Part shown: positions 33,500-41,196 of the stretch, piece after piece
Layout: each line of letters opens with the position of its first letter
Position numbering within the stretch: the stretch's first letter is position 1
Assembly (NCBI GenBank): GCA_023659975.1
Contig: JAGXOI010000002.1
Location: 2,273 to 43,468 of the forward strand
Direction of reading: 5' to 3'
Length of the DNA: 41,196 bases
Origin: Candidatus Aenigmarchaeota archaeon LH_S4
GTDB taxonomy: Archaea > Aenigmatarchaeota > Aenigmatarchaeia > QMZS01
Notes under the pieces: generated by a model
The model's database searches: none
Told to the model about the DNA's origin: nothing
The model's input: only the letters and a program-made list of their open reading frames with translations
Made by a program: the position numbers and the translations under genes

Positions 33500-36151
33500 T
33501 TAAAAAAATCTTTCTTTTTTACTCATAACTTTCAAAGCATCAAAAACAACTACTATAGACAAAGATACCAAAGCTGCAATAATTACATTAAATATTCCTA
33601 TTGGGGTGGTCTCAAATATCAAATTTAGTGGAGAATAAATTATCAATGCTGTTAATAAAATAGATGCTGCAGAAGCATAAACTAAGTATTTATTTGTAAA
33701 TAAGGATAATTTATAAACAGGATATTTGAAAGACCTGAAATTAAATGCATTTGCTATTTCAAAGAATATTAATGTTAATAAACCTGTAGTTCTGGCTGTT
33801 GTTATAGCTATACTTTCTGCGACTCCTTGCGCAAGAAGAGAGTTAAGAGTTAGGTAAAATACTCCTAAAGTGCCGAGGCCTAGTATAGTCCCGGCAATTG
33901 CAAGCAGTAAAATTAGCTCTCTGTTCAGAATACTAGATTTTTTTCTTGGTTTTGCTTTCATAATACCCTTATATGGTGGATTAAAACCTAAACTAATTGC
34001 TGGTAAATCATCTGTAACCATATTCATAAACAAAATCTGCAGGGCAAGTAGAGGTAAGGGTAGACCTAATAATATTCCAAAAAATATGACAAACAACTCT
34101 GCATAATTGCAAGAAAGCTGATAGGTAACAAATTTTTGTATATTGCTAAAGATTGTTCTTCCCTCCTTGACAGCAGAAATAATTGTGGCAAAGTTATCAT
34201 CTTTCAAAATCAAATCTGCTGATTCTTTGGAAACATCTGTTCCACTTATACCCATCGCTACACCAATATGTGATTCCTTTAGAGTAGGGGCATCATTCAC
34301 TCCATCCCCAGTCATAGTAACAATCTCTCTATTTTGTTTAAGTGCCTTTACAATTCTTAATTTATGTTCTGGTCTGACTCTGGCGAATATTGTTGTTTTA
34401 TTTACAATTTTTGAAAGTTCATCATCTGTTAATTTATCCATTTCTTCTCCTGTAAGGACCTCACCAGGAAGCCTTATTTCCCTTGCTATCTCAACAGCAG
34501 TTTCTTTGTTGTCACCTGTAATCATTTTTACTTTTATTCCCGCTTCTTCACATGAAAGTAAAGCGGATTTAACTTTTGCTCTTGGTGGATCTTCTATAGC
34601 TACTAAACCTAAAAATACAAGGTCATTTTCAAAGTGGTTTTTATCAAAATAGGAAGTCTCTTTATAAGCAATGGCAAGAACCCTATATTTTTTTAATGTA
34701 AAAGTTTTATTAAAATTCATTATCTTTTCTTTTTCTTTTTCACTTAGTTCAATAATTTTATCTTCTCTCTGTACAAATTTACATTTCTTAATTAAAATTT
34801 CCGGAGCCCCCTTTGAATAAACATAGTTCTTTCCTTTCTCCCTGTACAAGACAGACATCATTTTTCTTTCTGAGTTGAAGGGAAGTTCTTCTTTTCTTGT
34901 AATCCGCATATCTTCCCTGAAAATTCCTGCTTTTGCAGACATTATCAATAAAGATGCTTCTGTTGGACTACCTTTTATACTACACTCGCTATCGGTTCCT
35001 TTTCTCTCAATTTTTGCATCGTTGCACAAAATAGAGGTTTTTAAGAGTAGGTTTAGAGGAATATTTTCTTTCTTTCCATCTCTTTTAATATCTATTTTCT
35101 GATTCTTTAAGAGTAGACTACCTTTTGTACTGTAACCTGTACCAGTGATACTGATAACTTTATTATCTATAAATATTTTTTTTGCTGTCATCTCTCCTTT
35201 TGTTATAGTACCAGTTTTATCTGCACATATTACTGTAGTTTCTCCAAGAGTTTCAATTATTGACATTCTGCTTAATATTGCATTTTTCTTTGACATCCTG
35301 TAAGCACCATAAGCAAGAGTTGAGATGATAACAACAGGAAGTCCTTCAGGAAATCCTGCTACACATAAAGCAATAACAACAATAAGAACTTCTACCAGAA
35401 TACTATAAGAAAAAGAAGTGCTTCTTATTAACATAATAGCACCGGTTAAAACAGAAACAACTATCGCTATAAAAGCCATATATTTTGCCAACCTATTCAC
35501 TTTCTTTTGTAAAGGTAATTCTTTTTCTGCCCTGGAAATCATCCCTGCAATCTTTCCAAACTCTGTATTCATCCCGGTATGCAAGACCTCTGCTCTGGTT
35601 TTTCCATTAACAACATAAGTCCCCATGAAAATTTGATTATCTTCCCTATAATTTTTCTTATTTTTTGCTGCAAATTTTTTGATTTCTTTAGATTCTCCTG
35701 TCAGGGTAGATTCGTTAATTTTTAATTCTTTTTCTTCCAAAATTAAGCAATCTGCCGGGATTTTTTCACCAGTTCTTAAAACAACAATATCTCCCCGGAC
35801 TATTTTCCTTGAAGGCACTTCAACTTCTTTCCCATCCCTTATAACAACAGAAATTGGTGTAATTATTTGCTTCAAAGACTTAATTGCACTCTCTGCTTTG
35901 TATTCCTGAAAAAATCCAACAAATATAACAATAACAATAATTACAAAAATTGTGTATCCTGTTACTAACTCACCAACAAAAAAGGATAATAAGGCTCCAA
36001 CAAATAGTAAATAAACCATGAAATTATTCTTTATCTGCCTCAAAAGAATTTGTAATGGAGAAATGTGAAGAAGTTCTTTTATTTCATTGTAACCATATTC
36101 TCTAAGTCTTTTAGTGGCTTCTTTTTGGGTAAGACCTTTTAACTTCTTCAT
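33500..36151 (-). CDS. P2-type cation-transporting ATPase (second)
   Basis: LTGESKE, AGFPEGLPVV, ADKTGTITKG, MTGDGVNDAPTLKESHIG. Confidence 0.95.
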   Translation of the reverse strand: MKKLKGLTQKEATKRLREYGYNEIKELLHISPLQILLRQIKNNFMVYLLFVGALLSFFVGELVTGYTIFVIIVIVIFVGFFQEYKAESAIKSLKQIITPISVVIRDGKEVEVPSRKIVRGDIVVLRTGEKIPADCLILEEKELKINESTLTGESKEIKKFAAKNKKNYREDNQIFMGTYVVNGKTRAEVLHTGMNTEFGKIAGMISRAEKELPLQKKVNRLAKYMAFIAIVVSVLTGAIMLIRSTSFSYSILVEVLIVVIALCVAGFPEGLPVVIISTLAYGAYRMSKKNAILSRMSIIETLGETTVICADKTGTITKGEMTAKKIFIDNKVISITGTGYSTKGSLLLKNQKIDIKRDGKKENIPLNLLLKTSILCNDAKIERKGTDSECSIKGSPTEASLLIMSAKAGIFREDMRITRKEELPFNSERKMMSVLYREKGKNYVYSKGAPEILIKKCKFVQREDKIIELSEKEKEKIMNFNKTFTLKKYRVLAIAYKETSYFDKNHFENDLVFLGLVAIEDPPRAKVKSALLSCEEAGIKVKMITGDNKETAVEIAREIRLPGEVLTGEEMDKLTDDELSKIVNKTTIFARVRPEHKLRIVKALKQNREIVTMTGDGVNDAPTLKESHIGVAMGISGTDVSKESADLILKDDNFATIISAVKEGRTIFSNIQKFVTYQLSCNYAELFVIFFGILLGLPLPLLALQILFMNMVTDDLPAISLGFNPPYKGIMKAKPRKKSSILNRELILLLAIAGTILGLGTLGVFYLTLNSLLAQGVAESIAITTARTTGLLTLIFFEIANAFNFRSFKYPVYKLSLFTNKYLVYASAASILLTALIIYSPLNLIFETTPIGIFNVIIAALVSLSIVVVFDALKVMSKKERFF

Positions 36152-36203
36152 AATAACATGAAACTATTTTAGATAATTTGTTTATTTTAAACTATAATAA
36201 AAT

Positions 36204-36423
36204 TTTTGCACTTTTAATATAAACCTTCCATAGCGGTTTTAACCACTTCCCCAATATTCCCAATTTTCTCATACAATTCAATACTCCACTCAACAAACTT
36301 TCCAACTTCCTTTTACTGCTCTGACAAAGTGATTAAAACAAGGTTTGTTAAAGAGAGTTCTGAATTTTGACAAAAATTATTGATATATTTGCTAAATATC
36401 CTTAAAAACTAAAAAGTGCAAAA
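36204..36423. mobile_element. MITE-like element, copy 1
   Basis: 220 bp; termini TTTTGCACTTTT / AAAAGTGCAAAA; about 98% identical to 40853-41073. Confidence 0.85.
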
Positions 36424-36466
36424 GTTATATAGTTAAGTAACAAATACCTTATATTTAAGTTTAATT

Positions 36467-36907
36467 GTGGGGAAAATCTTAATAGCTGGTTTAGGAGATA
36501 AATTGCGGGGTGATGATGGTCTTGGCCCTTTAGTAATAGAAAAACTCAAAAATGAGAAATTACCTGAAAATGTTGAAGTGGAAGATTTTGGTTCAGGAGT
36601 CTTTGCTCTTCTAAACAAAATAGAGCAATATGAAAAAATCATTGTTGTGGATGCTATCAAAAGAGAAGGTAACCCAGGAGAAGTATATAACTTTGAATTA
36701 TCTGATTTAAAAAAAGGAAAACTCACAAATATCCATGAGACTAAAATAGATAAGATAGTTCTCGTGGCTAAAGAGCTGGGTGTTGAGACAAAAATATTAA
36801 TTGTGGGTTGCGAACCAAAATCAATGGAATATGAAGTTGGTCTATCAAAAGAAGTGGAAAAAGCGATTCCTGAAATAATAGATTTGATTGTTGCTTCTAT
36901 TAACTGA
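36467..36907 (+). CDS. Hydrogenase maturation protease (HycI/HyaD family), GTG start
   Basis: ILIAGLGDKLRGDDGLGPLVIEKL, VVDAIKREGNPG, VGCEPKSMEYEVGLS. Confidence 0.93.
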   Translation: MGKILIAGLGDKLRGDDGLGPLVIEKLKNEKLPENVEVEDFGSGVFALLNKIEQYEKIIVVDAIKREGNPGEVYNFELSDLKKGKLTNIHETKIDKIVLVAKELGVETKILIVGCEPKSMEYEVGLSKEVEKAIPEIIDLIVASIN

Positions 36908-36926
36908 TAAAAAATTTTATTTAATT

Positions 36927-37100
36927 ATGATAGAAATTTCAAGAAAAGATAATGTTTCCTTTTCTGATATAGCACCTTCAAAATTTTGGAGGGCTGGAGG
37001 AGGTAAACTCCTTGATTATTTTAACAATGTCTCAAGAATGTTAAAAAACCCTAAAAAAGTATATGTAGATGAACTAATTGGTTTCCATAGTGGGATTTAA
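36927..37100 (+). CDS. Small protein of unknown function within the hydrogenase operon
   Basis: About 57 aa from MIEISRKDNVSFSDIAPSKFWRAGGG. Confidence 0.45.
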   Translation: MIEISRKDNVSFSDIAPSKFWRAGGGKLLDYFNNVSRMLKNPKKVYVDELIGFHSGI

Positions 37101-37124
37101 TAAAGAGTAATGTGTAATTAAATA

Positions 37125-38093
37125 ATGTATTATGTTCTAAAGAAAAAAGATCTCCCAAAATTCGTGAAACTGTTAAACAAAGATTTTGAGGTAATAGCTC
37201 CCGTAAAAAAGAATGGCTCTCTTATTTTTGATAAAGTAAGTTCCGCGGATGAAATCGTGAAGAATTATATAAACACTGATTACCCTCCAAAGAATCTTTT
37301 CCTCCCTGATGGAGAAACAATATTTGAATACAAGAAATCCAATAATATAAAAATAAAGCATCCTGGAAAGCCAAAGAAAAGAGTGATATATAGAATTAGA
37401 CCTTGTGATGTAAATGCTCTGTTGAAATTGGATAAAATATTGGGTGGAGGATTCTATTACAGAACAAAAAGGGAAAACACGAAAATCATAGCAATTAACT
37501 GCACCAAAGCTGGGGAAAATTGTTTCTGCACAAGTTTAGGGGATGACCAGTTAAAGGAAGGTTTTGATTTGTTATTAACAGATGTTGGAAAAGAATTTTA
37601 CATAAAGATTGGGAGTGAGTGGGGCAAAAAATTGATGAAACACAAAATCTTCAAGAGAGCGGAAAACTCGTTCAAGAAAACTTTTTTTGAATGCAAGAGA
37701 TTTTTCTTAGCAAAAGATTTAGACAAAAAAATAGAAAGAAATTTCAACACAAAGATCTGGGAAAAGCACTTCAAGAAATGTTTTTCCTGCACTGCTTGTT
37801 CAGTAGTCTGCCCTATGTGCTATTGTTTTGATTTAGTACAAGTTCCAAAATCTGAAAATGAAGGTAAAGTAAAAAAATTCTGGAGTTCCTGCTTGTTAAA
37901 AGAATTTTCAAGAGTTGCAGGAGATTTTATTTTCAGAGATAAAAGAGTTAATAGGGTGAGGCAATTCCTAAGTCACAAATTCTTATATGGAAAAAAACAT
38001 TATGATGAATTCTTGTGTGTTGGTTGCGGTCGTTGCATATCACATTGTCCTGTAGGAATTGACTACGAAAAGTTTTTAGAGGAAATAAAATGA
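37125..38093 (+). CDS. hydB: Cytosolic [NiFe]-hydrogenase beta subunit (iron-sulfur, sulfhydrogenase HydB-like)
   Basis: RPCDVNALLKLDKIL; ferredoxin-like CFSCTACSVVCPMCYC and CVGCGRCISHCPVGID. Confidence 0.9.
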   Translation: MYYVLKKKDLPKFVKLLNKDFEVIAPVKKNGSLIFDKVSSADEIVKNYINTDYPPKNLFLPDGETIFEYKKSNNIKIKHPGKPKKRVIYRIRPCDVNALLKLDKILGGGFYYRTKRENTKIIAINCTKAGENCFCTSLGDDQLKEGFDLLLTDVGKEFYIKIGSEWGKKLMKHKIFKRAENSFKKTFFECKRFFLAKDLDKKIERNFNTKIWEKHFKKCFSCTACSVVCPMCYCFDLVQVPKSENEGKVKKFWSSCLLKEFSRVAGDFIFRDKRVNRVRQFLSHKFLYGKKHYDEFLCVGCGRCISHCPVGIDYEKFLEEIK

Positions 38094-38914
38094 AAATATA
38101 TACACCAGATATTGGGAAAATTAAAAAAACAATAAAAGAGACAGAGGACACGAAAACTTTTCAAATAGAACTAGAAAACAAAATTTTAAGAGAACATTTC
38201 TATTTTAACCCAGGTGAATTTGTCTTAATCACAGTTTTCGGTGTTGGGGAAGCACCATTCTCGATCTCTTCCTCCCCTTTCAACAAAAATTATTTTGAGA
38301 TAACTGCAAGAAAAACAGGTAATGTAACAAATGCTCTTTTCAATCTTAAAGAAGGGAATAAAATAGGTGTTAGAGGACCTCATGGTAAAGGATATCCAAT
38401 GGATGAGTTTGAACACACAAATATTATACTTATTAGTGGGGGTTGTGGACTTGCCCCTCTGAAATCACTAATCGAATATGTAATACAAAAGAGAGGTTAT
38501 TATAACAAACTAACCTTGCTTTATGGAGCCAAAACACCTCAAAATATTATTTACGAAAAAGAAATTTCAAAATGGAAAAAGATCAAGAATTTTGATGTTC
38601 ATTTAACTGTGGACAAAGGTAATAAGAAATGGAAAGGTAACTTAGGAGTGGTCACAAAACTAATAAACAAGGTTAAGAATTTTGAAAACTCTGTGGTTTG
38701 TCTTTGTGGACCTCCTGTAATGATGAAGTACTCAATTCCAGAATTAAAGAAAAAAGGAGTTGAGGATGAGGATATTTTTGTTTCCCTGGAGAGAAAAATG
38801 CAATGCGGTTTAAAAATTTGCTGTCATTGCAATATTAATGATGTTTATGTTTGTAAGGATGGTCCTGTGTTTCGTTATTTGGACATTAAAGATTTGAGTG
38901 AATTAGGATGGTAA
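38090..38914 (+). CDS. hydG: Hydrogenase gamma subunit (FAD/NAD(P)-binding oxidoreductase, HydG-like)
   Basis: PFSISSSP, LISGGCGLAPLKSLIEYV, LLYGAKTPQNIIY, CGPPVMMKY, ERKMQCGLKICCHCNI. Confidence 0.92.
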   Translation: MKIYTPDIGKIKKTIKETEDTKTFQIELENKILREHFYFNPGEFVLITVFGVGEAPFSISSSPFNKNYFEITARKTGNVTNALFNLKEGNKIGVRGPHGKGYPMDEFEHTNIILISGGCGLAPLKSLIEYVIQKRGYYNKLTLLYGAKTPQNIIYEKEISKWKKIKNFDVHLTVDKGNKKWKGNLGVVTKLINKVKNFENSVVCLCGPPVMMKYSIPELKKKGVEDEDIFVSLERKMQCGLKICCHCNINDVYVCKDGPVFRYLDIKDLSELGW

Positions 38915-39615
38915 AGAAAAAAGTTGGTGTGTTTAAATTCACATGTTGTTCCGGATGTCAAGTGGAGATTCTAAACCAAGCTGAGAGATTTTTGGAACTA
39001 AGGAAAAAACTTGATTTCAAATACATGAAAATCTTAAAGAAAGGGAAAATTCAAAAATTTGATATAGGGTTTATTAAAGGTGCAATTTCTTCAAAGGAAG
39101 AAGTTGAATTAGCAAAAGAAATCAGAGAAAAAACTGATTACTTGATTGCATTGGGCAGCTGCGCAGTTCTTGGAGGAATTTCTGCAATGCAAAACTTTGT
39201 TTCTGCTAAGAACAAAAGAAAAACAAATTACACACCTAAAGACAAATCAGTTCCAGTTGAAAAATATGTTAAGGTTGAGTACAGATTAAGAGGTTGCCCT
39301 ATTACTGGTTCCGAATTTTTACAAATGATAAATGATCTTTTAGCAGGAAAAACACTAAGGGATCTGGAAACACCTGTTTGCAACGAGTGCAGGAAAAACA
39401 ATAATGAATGTTTGATAGAAAAAGGTGAATTTTGTGCAGGTCCAATAACATATGCAGGTTGCAAAGCAATCTGCCCAGAAAACAATACTTCTTGCATAGG
39501 TTGTAGAGGGATAACAAAAGATGCGAATTTAAAGGAGTGGAAGAAGAAAATGAAAGAAAAGGGATTTGAGGAAAAGAGTAAAGAAGTTTTGAGAATATTT
39601 AATCATGAGCCATGA
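38908..39615 (+). CDS. hydD: [NiFe]-hydrogenase small (delta) subunit
   Basis: FTCCSGCQVEIL, ALGSCAVLGGISAMQN, RGCPITGSEFL, Cys-rich C-terminus. Confidence 0.93.
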   Translation: MVKKKVGVFKFTCCSGCQVEILNQAERFLELRKKLDFKYMKILKKGKIQKFDIGFIKGAISSKEEVELAKEIREKTDYLIALGSCAVLGGISAMQNFVSAKNKRKTNYTPKDKSVPVEKYVKVEYRLRGCPITGSEFLQMINDLLAGKTLRDLETPVCNECRKNNNECLIEKGEFCAGPITYAGCKAICPENNTSCIGCRGITKDANLKEWKKKMKEKGFEEKSKEVLRIFNHEP

Positions 39616-40849
39616 AATGACTAGAGTGGGAGGTAATGCAACAATTATTTTAGAGAAAGATGGAAAAAAATTAATTCCTAAAGTTAATATATATGAATCC
39701 TCAAGAAAATTTGAAAAAATCCTAATCGGAAAAAAAGTAGAGGAAATACCTGATTTAGTGAGCAGAATCTGTGGTATTTGCCATGTACCTCACAAATTAG
39801 GAGGAATAATGGCTATTGAGGATGCTCTGAATGTAAAAGTAGGGAAAGAGATAGAGATGTTGAGAGAACTCCTAAACTTAGGTTCCTTAATGAACAGCCA
39901 CGTGTTGCACTTGTTCTTCATGGTTCTTCCAGATATAAAAGAACATGATAATATATTTGAAATGACAAATAACTATAAAAATCTCATCAATAAAGGACTA
40001 AAATTAGAAAAAGTAAGTGAGGAAATTGTTAAAGTTGTTGGTGGTAGGGAGGTACATACATTAACCCCTAAAATTGGTGGTTTCACTAAATTCCCTGGAA
40101 GAAAGGATCTGAACACACTTCTAAAAAATTTAAAAGAAGCAAGAAAAGATGCTTTGGAAGCAATTAAAGTTTTTTCAGAAAACAAAAAGGACTTGAAGTT
40201 CAAAAAGAAAACCAGGCACATCTCCTTGAAAGGAAATAAAAATTATGAAGTTCTTAAGGGAGACTTAATCGCAGATGGTTTTGACTTTTCCGCAAAAGAG
40301 TATGGAAAATTCCTAAAGGAATACGAAGTTGATTATTCCACAGCAAAATTCTCTGAATTCAACAACAAAAGTTATATGGTGGGCGCTCTCTCTAGGTTGA
40401 TTAATAATGGAGATAACTTGCCAGCAAAAATAAAAAAATATTTGAAAAATTTGGAATTAAACTCACCATTCTCCAACAATCTTGCACAAACAATTGAAGT
40501 TTATTATTGCATTGAAAGAGCTATAGAGATTATTGAAAATTTGAAATTGAGGGAAAAGAATGTTGATTTTAAGTATAAAGAAAGTGAAGGAATAAGCGTA
40601 ACTGAAGCTCCAAGAGGGATTCTAGTTCACCATTACAAAATTGGAAAAAATGGAAAAGTGAAATATGCTAACATAATCACACCAACTGCTCAAAATCTGA
40701 AAAGTATGGAGGATTCTGCAACAGAGTTCATACCTTCTGTGCCTAAAAAAGATCTAGAACATTTCCTTGAAAGATTGATTAGGGCTTATGATCCATGCAC
40801 CCCCTGCTCAACTCATTTCCTTGATGTAAGATACAATGATTATTTATAA
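39605..40849 (+). CDS. hydA: [NiFe]-hydrogenase large (alpha) subunit, group 3b-like
   Basis: L1 RICGICHVPHK and L2 DPCTPCSTH with cleavable C-terminal tail FLDVRYNDYL. Confidence 0.94.
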   Translation: MSHEMTRVGGNATIILEKDGKKLIPKVNIYESSRKFEKILIGKKVEEIPDLVSRICGICHVPHKLGGIMAIEDALNVKVGKEIEMLRELLNLGSLMNSHVLHLFFMVLPDIKEHDNIFEMTNNYKNLINKGLKLEKVSEEIVKVVGGREVHTLTPKIGGFTKFPGRKDLNTLLKNLKEARKDALEAIKVFSENKKDLKFKKKTRHISLKGNKNYEVLKGDLIADGFDFSAKEYGKFLKEYEVDYSTAKFSEFNNKSYMVGALSRLINNGDNLPAKIKKYLKNLELNSPFSNNLAQTIEVYYCIERAIEIIENLKLREKNVDFKYKESEGISVTEAPRGILVHHYKIGKNGKVKYANIITPTAQNLKSMEDSATEFIPSVPKKDLEHFLERLIRAYDPCTPCSTHFLDVRYNDYL

Positions 40850-40852
40850 AGG

Positions 40853-41073
40853 TTTTGCACTTTTAATATAAACCTTCCATAGCGGTTTTAACCACTTCCC
40901 TAATATTCCCAATTTTCTCATACAATTCAATATTCCACTCAACAAACTTTCCAACTTCCTTTTACTGCTCTGACAAAGTGATTAAAACAAGGTTTGTTAA
41001 AGAGAGTTCTGAATTTTGACAAAAATTATTGATATATTTGTTAAATATCCTTAAAAAACTAAAAAGTGCAAAA
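40853..41073. mobile_element. MITE-like element, copy 2, same orientation as copy 1
   Basis: 221 bp; 3 substitutions and 1 single-base indel relative to copy 1. Confidence 0.85.
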
Positions 41074-41082
41074 CTTATACTG

Positions 41083-41196
41083 TCAACTACCCCTCCCTAA
41101 AGGAAGGGGCTTGTAACTACTACTAATGCAACGAGTTGTAGTGTTACATTTGGCTGGTTGACACACAGCCTGCTCCAATACGGAAGAACCGAGTTG
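41083..41196 (-). CDS. Probable C-terminal end of an IS605-type OrfB/TnpB, truncated by window edge
   Basis: Open frame QLGSSVLEQAVCQPAKCNTTTRCISSSYKPLPLGRGS* overlapping an IS605-end-like hairpin sequence tcaactacccctccctaaaggaaggggctt. Confidence 0.5.
   Translation of the reverse strand, partial: QLGSSVLEQAVCQPAKCNTTTRCISSSYKPLPLGRGS

Follow-up and report, generated by a model that had tools for sequence, protein, structure and literature searches.

A [NiFe]-hydrogenase operon between two near-identical MITEs in a draft Aenigmarchaeota genome

How did a hydrogenase operon come to lie between two near-identical MITE copies in an archaeal chromosome? The stretch of DNA analysed here (the window; 41,196 nucleotides) corresponds to contig C26 of a draft Aenigmarchaeota MAG (G000; 779 kb in 103 contigs, 72% complete). 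This contig extends 123 bp beyond the right MITE copy. The window was compared with Candidatus Aenigmarchaeota archaeon LH_S7 (G010), a member of the same family and another genus, and with further genomes (G001 to G009), several of which are incomplete MAGs. The reading that we tentatively prefer is that a horizontally exchanged operon was joined to the chromosome at the MITEs, most likely by recombination between MITEs.

An earlier note on this DNA had described two near-identical copies in the same orientation with terminal inverted repeats, and this description holds. The left copy (36204..36423, plus strand; 220-bp core with extended ends at about 36198-36429) and the right copy (40853..41073, plus strand; 221-bp core, starting 3 bp past the stop codon of HydA) are 98.2% identical, with 3 substitutions and one 1-bp indel, and each carries the inverted repeats TTTTGCACTTTT / AAAAGTGCAAAA exactly over 12 bp. 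Chance is ruled out for a 219-nt repeat of at least 96% identity inside 5 kb. The true MITE ends lie ca. 5-6 bp beyond the core, as seen from an unoccupied copy of the site of the parent IS, and both copies are non-coding, holding just transposase remnants of ca. 30 aa.

The parent IS was found in the same genome (C59:22696-23900; 1,205 bp). The MITE matches 124 bp at the left end and 104 bp at the right end of this IS, the left copy aligning with LE 1-124 and RE 117-220, and between these ends lies an intact gene for a 385-aa transposase, which scored 163.7 bits against the IS701 model NF033540 (cut-off, 150). Since the ends of the repeats match those of the C59 IS and the transposase lies between the latter, the repeats are MITEs formed by internal deletion. 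The suggestion that they were MITE-like, with inverted ends, was thus borne out, and the transposase family with matching ends that the earlier note had proposed to look for is an IS701-family IS resident in the genome. This IS is mobile, as it interrupts a gene that is unbroken in G005 and is flanked by a 7-bp duplication (TAATTAT); the comparison with G005 places its right end 6 bp past GTGCAAAA. When flanks were shuffled, a repeat of 7 bp was reached in a few per cent of trials and one of 9 bp in under 1%. The element resembles IS701 in its transposase above the model cut-off, its inverted ends and the derivation of a MITE by internal deletion; it differs in belonging to an archaeal (Aenigmarchaeota) lineage and in having target repeats of 7-9 bp instead of the 4-bp target duplication of IS701, so that its placement is by the transposase only. 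At E ≤ 1e-40, the transposase was detected only in this genome among 156 genomes of the class, and a search of viral contigs for relatives of the MITE pattern and the transposase returned none.

The MITE is multi-copy, with two full copies in the window, one in LH_S7 and several partial or derived ones; an exact search of the genome contigs with the MITE pattern gave a single match, in LH_S7. The LH_S7 MITE shares the deletion junction with the window MITEs and is accompanied in that genome by a second deletion derivative. Two small deletions are common to both window MITEs and absent from the LH_S7 MITE, and the window MITEs are therefore sister copies. In both genomes (G000 and LH_S7), the element search also located members of the MITE family at places unrelated to the hydrogenase, so that the family is not tied to this cargo. 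Members of the IS family can evidently carry cargo: an LH_S7 element between the 16S and 23S rRNA genes (L057:15881-17317) has the same ends, an ORF of 337 aa at the position of the transposase, a 9-bp repeat (ACCTTTATA) and the same right boundary as the C59 IS.

Gene calls and profile matches agree with the earlier note that the two MITEs enclose only a maturation protease, HydB, HydG, HydD, HydA and a small ORF; all six genes are on the plus strand. The 5' region of the operon (36430..36466, plus strand) consists of the junction base 36430 and an AT-rich leader, with the putative TATA-like element GTTATATAG at the MITE edge. Upstream of the left MITE lies a calcium-type P-type ATPase gene (33500..36151, minus strand), which is outside the cassette and syntenic in same-genus genomes. 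The left MITE, whose ends border on TATA-like sequences, precedes the protease start codon by 43 bp and is ca. 50 bp away from the start of the divergent ATPase gene; it is possible that it forms a divergent promoter boundary.

The first enclosed gene encodes a 146-aa hydrogenase maturation protease of the HycI/HupD type (36467..36907; TIGR00072, 1.9e-37, above cut-off; PF01750, 3e-24). It is followed by the 57-aa ORF (36927..37100), which matched no family and lies nearly entirely within a 195-bp stretch absent from LH_S7. HydB, the Fe-S electron-transfer subunit (37125..38093; 322 aa), matched PF17179 (2.9e-27) and, as its best NCBIfam match, sulfhyd_ShyB (1.9e-49, below the equivalog cut-off). 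HydG, the FAD/NAD(P)-binding subunit (38090..38914; 274 aa), was likewise assigned by profile matches, and HydD, the small [NiFe]-hydrogenase subunit (38908..39615; 235 aa), matched sulfhyd_HydD (5.5e-48) and PF01058 (6.1e-25). HydA, the large catalytic subunit (39605..40849; 414 aa), contains the cysteine motifs RICGIC and DPCTPCSTH, and its stop codon lies at about the usual distance past the last of these, just before the right MITE.

Judging from the HydBGDA subunits, the Ni-binding cysteine motifs and the nearest solved chains, which for HydA are those of sulfhydrogenase 1 alpha, the operon encodes a group 3b-type [NiFe]-hydrogenase. The gene order of sulfhydrogenase 1 of Pyrococcus and Thermococcus is HydBGDA, as here. 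All four subunits are shared with that group 3b [NiFe] enzyme, whereas the scores obtained here are well under the NCBIfam equivalog cut-offs, the protease gene is inside the operon and the Glu of the RxEGH motif is missing from HydA. This conserved residue, which participates in proton transfer, is replaced by Gly (TRVGGN) in the N-terminal motif of HydA (39605-39640), and Tyr occupies the position in two relatives from the class. The Gly-for-Glu replacement is a candidate for an altered proton path or an altered function. HypD and a HypE-like protein, which are needed for hydrogenase maturation, are encoded on contig C52 of G000, with 98% counterparts in the sister genome G008; no HypD was found in the remaining genomes of the family, among them LH_S7. 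Thermal Aenigmarchaeota are known to have group 3b hydrogenases (PMC8407114).

A second copy of the operon, 98.2% identical to that of the window at the nucleotide level over 3.2 kb, is present on contig C11 of LH_S7 without MITEs. Its neighbours there are an Lsm gene on one side and a DHH gene on the other, a site other than that in G000 and one for which comparison with relatives gave no conserved synteny. The LH_S7 copy is decayed, with a frameshifted protease gene, 195 bp gone and HydA ending after ca. 67 codons at a multi-copy hairpin repeat. Elsewhere in the class, HydA shows at most 43% identity over its full length, and no hydrogenase was found in G001 to G009, several of which are incomplete MAGs. 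Aligned DNA of G000 and LH_S7 (a comparison covering about 541 kb of each genome) has a modal identity of 68%, with a minority of segments at 86-98%. The operon has thus, as these identities indicate, been exchanged horizontally between Aenigmarchaeota lineages and, over evolutionary time, is mobile. The two genomes share about 15 further gene-sized segments at 92-98% identity, mostly without border repeats. Recent exchange between the two genera is accordingly frequent and general and mostly unbordered by repeats, and the MITEs are not needed for it. Examples of such segments are an anaerobic ribonucleotide reductase-like gene with its activase and a methyltransferase-like gene. The repeat of ca. 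300-325 bp with apparent hairpins, one copy of which cuts HydA in LH_S7, is multi-copy in both genomes (L056:14193-14499, L056:8076-8390 and L166:18136-18462); an Rfam search gave no match for the L056 copies and, for the LH_S7 contig stretch and the contig end, nothing but a tRNA.

Aligned from base 36430, the window and LH_S7 are identical at 197 of 200 positions rightwards and at only 17 of 40 leftwards, and base 36430 is the first base past the left MITE end, as set by the empty site of the IS. The left MITE edge, one of two outer junctions and the only one to which this evidence applies, is thus by comparison a rearrangement junction, at which the operon DNA shared with LH_S7 stops and beyond whose MITE the native, ATPase-side chromosome begins. 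Because the LH_S7 border is ca. 20 bp from the Lsm start codon, the space within which the borders could differ is small.

The ATPase gene on the chromosomal side of this junction has orthologues, in part syntenic, in seven genomes of the genus. On its 5' side, which is readable for at least one gene in six of these seven, other genes and no hydrogenase are present: a 342-aa gene in G002 and G003, a gene of ca. 100 aa in G001, G005 and G007, and a different gene in G006. The G004 contig stops shortly into the same ATPase-upstream region as that of G005. The site is therefore variable and hydrogenase-free elsewhere in the genus. The gene adjoining the ATPase in G002 and G003 was not found in G000. 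G008, which is ca. 97% identical to G000, was discarded as an operon-free sister; the neighbouring ATPase is missing there too, and the absence hence reflects missing data.

On the right, the 3' end of a TnpB-type (IS605/IS1341-like) element (41082..41196, minus strand) adjoins the MITE, taking over ca. 3-4 bp past it and being cut by the contig end. It shares 92% identity with the 3' end of the gene for a 387-aa TnpB on G008:C1 and matches PF07282 (1.7e-23) and PF01385 (7.8e-11). Contig C18 of G000 starts with the same kind of TnpB-type end. Between the outer flanks on the left and on the right, exact matches reach 4 bp at most, which is chance level. The left MITE itself shows no target duplication above chance level either (best match next to it, 4 bp), and a 5-bp TTATA repeat at the right MITE can equally be read as the element end; its interpretation as a target repeat was dropped after the G005 empty site of the parent IS was considered.

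We infer that recombination, rather than transposition as a unit, joined the operon to the chromosome. The two sister MITEs are internally deleted derivatives of the resident IS701-family IS and would be movable in trans by its transposase. MITE copies would have landed in AT-rich sequence immediately flanking the operon on both sides; the operon would then have been joined to the G000 chromosome by recombination of the operon-side MITEs with resident MITE copies. MITE-MITE recombination is preferred, and unit transposition ranked as its first rival, because the left MITE shows no target repeat of its own and the right one runs into the TnpB-type element after ca. 3-4 bp. Counting against the preferred reading are the MITE-free operon of LH_S7, the other exchanged segments that mostly have no border repeats, the restriction of the junction evidence to one side and the small space within which the borders at the Lsm gene could differ. 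The earlier note had suggested that the unit looks like a composite transposon or a metabolic cassette excisable by recombination; operon exchange, the left-edge junction and the operon-free site in relatives support this in part, while transposition as a unit is hypothetical. Two copies do flank a cargo here, but they are MITEs, not ISs, and neither contains a transposase, which leaves at most a non-autonomous variant. In such a variant, the IS701 transposase would have acted in trans on the outer MITE ends and moved the MITE-hydrogenase-MITE unit upstream of the ATPase. This is unlikely in our estimate, even though the copies have the same orientation and intact ends, an intact transposase gene is present in the genome, a cargo-carrying family member exists in LH_S7, the junction coincides with the element edge at a site where relatives lack the operon, and miniature elements have been shown experimentally to move intervening DNA in the case of TIMEs (PMC4133298). 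The left outer flank (ACTATAA) and the right one (ACT(G)) also agree at the few testable bases; however, the flanks match by no more than the chance-level 4 bp before the TnpB-type element intervenes, and the MITE-free operon of LH_S7 speaks against this explanation as well.

The bracket may also be coincidental, two MITEs having inserted independently beside an operon already in place and having had no role in its movement. The occurrence of the MITE and its relatives away from the hydrogenase, the position of these elements in TTATA-like AT-rich sites, such as operon edges supply, and the exchange of other segments without MITEs all fit this explanation. We nevertheless consider it quite unlikely, since the left MITE edge matches the border of the shared operon to single-base precision, and a simple recent insertion of the left MITE is disfavoured by the lack of a target repeat of its own though the copies differ by less than 2%. 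The latter argument is weakened by two MITE-type copies in LH_S7 that are also without convincing target duplication. Improbable in turn is an artefact in which a short-read assembler linked unrelated flanks from the community via the MITE repeats. The draft state of the MAG, the repeat at both cassette ends, the contig stop soon after the right copy and the unmatched flanks of the left copy would be consistent with it, but the contig reads across both copies, between which there are four differences, HydA stops at about the usual distance past its last cysteine motif, close to the right copy, and LH_S7 independently has the operon embedded in archaeal DNA.

A broader possibility, which we regard as rather unlikely, is that the locus represents a MITE-bounded non-autonomous metabolic transposon, or a MITE-targeted exchange cassette, through which a whole hydrogenase operon spreads among DPANN archaea. 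Gene sets bracketed by MITEs are familiar chiefly from bacterial resistance genes, and a search of the open literature for MITE-flanked hydrogenases, in related combinations of terms, found none. The TIMEs and mosaic non-autonomous transposons of Pseudomonas are Tn3-derived and were experimentally shown to mobilise flanked host DNA (PMC4133298); the present locus is alike in that miniature elements flank host DNA in a composite-like manner, and differs in being IS701-derived and known from genomic inference alone. The class 1 integrons of Acinetobacter flanked by MITEs, which have been reviewed (PMC10969869), also have two near-identical MITEs around a functional gene set, those being bacterial resistance integrons and this an archaeal metabolic operon. 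The arrangement described here offers a concrete vehicle by which small-genome archaea may gain or lose a whole energy-metabolism module. As the earlier note had suggested, the present pair of direct repeats could permit clean deletion of the operon by homologous recombination, an outcome that is plausible and to be expected of 220-bp direct repeats, and the junction predicts empty sites with a single MITE in sister strains.

A second pair of IS-derived pieces in the same orientation was observed in LH_S7 (L058:1095-6227, on its contig C4). The pieces are ca. 4.7 kb apart and enclose genes including a helicase-like one; the left end of the right-hand piece is missing.
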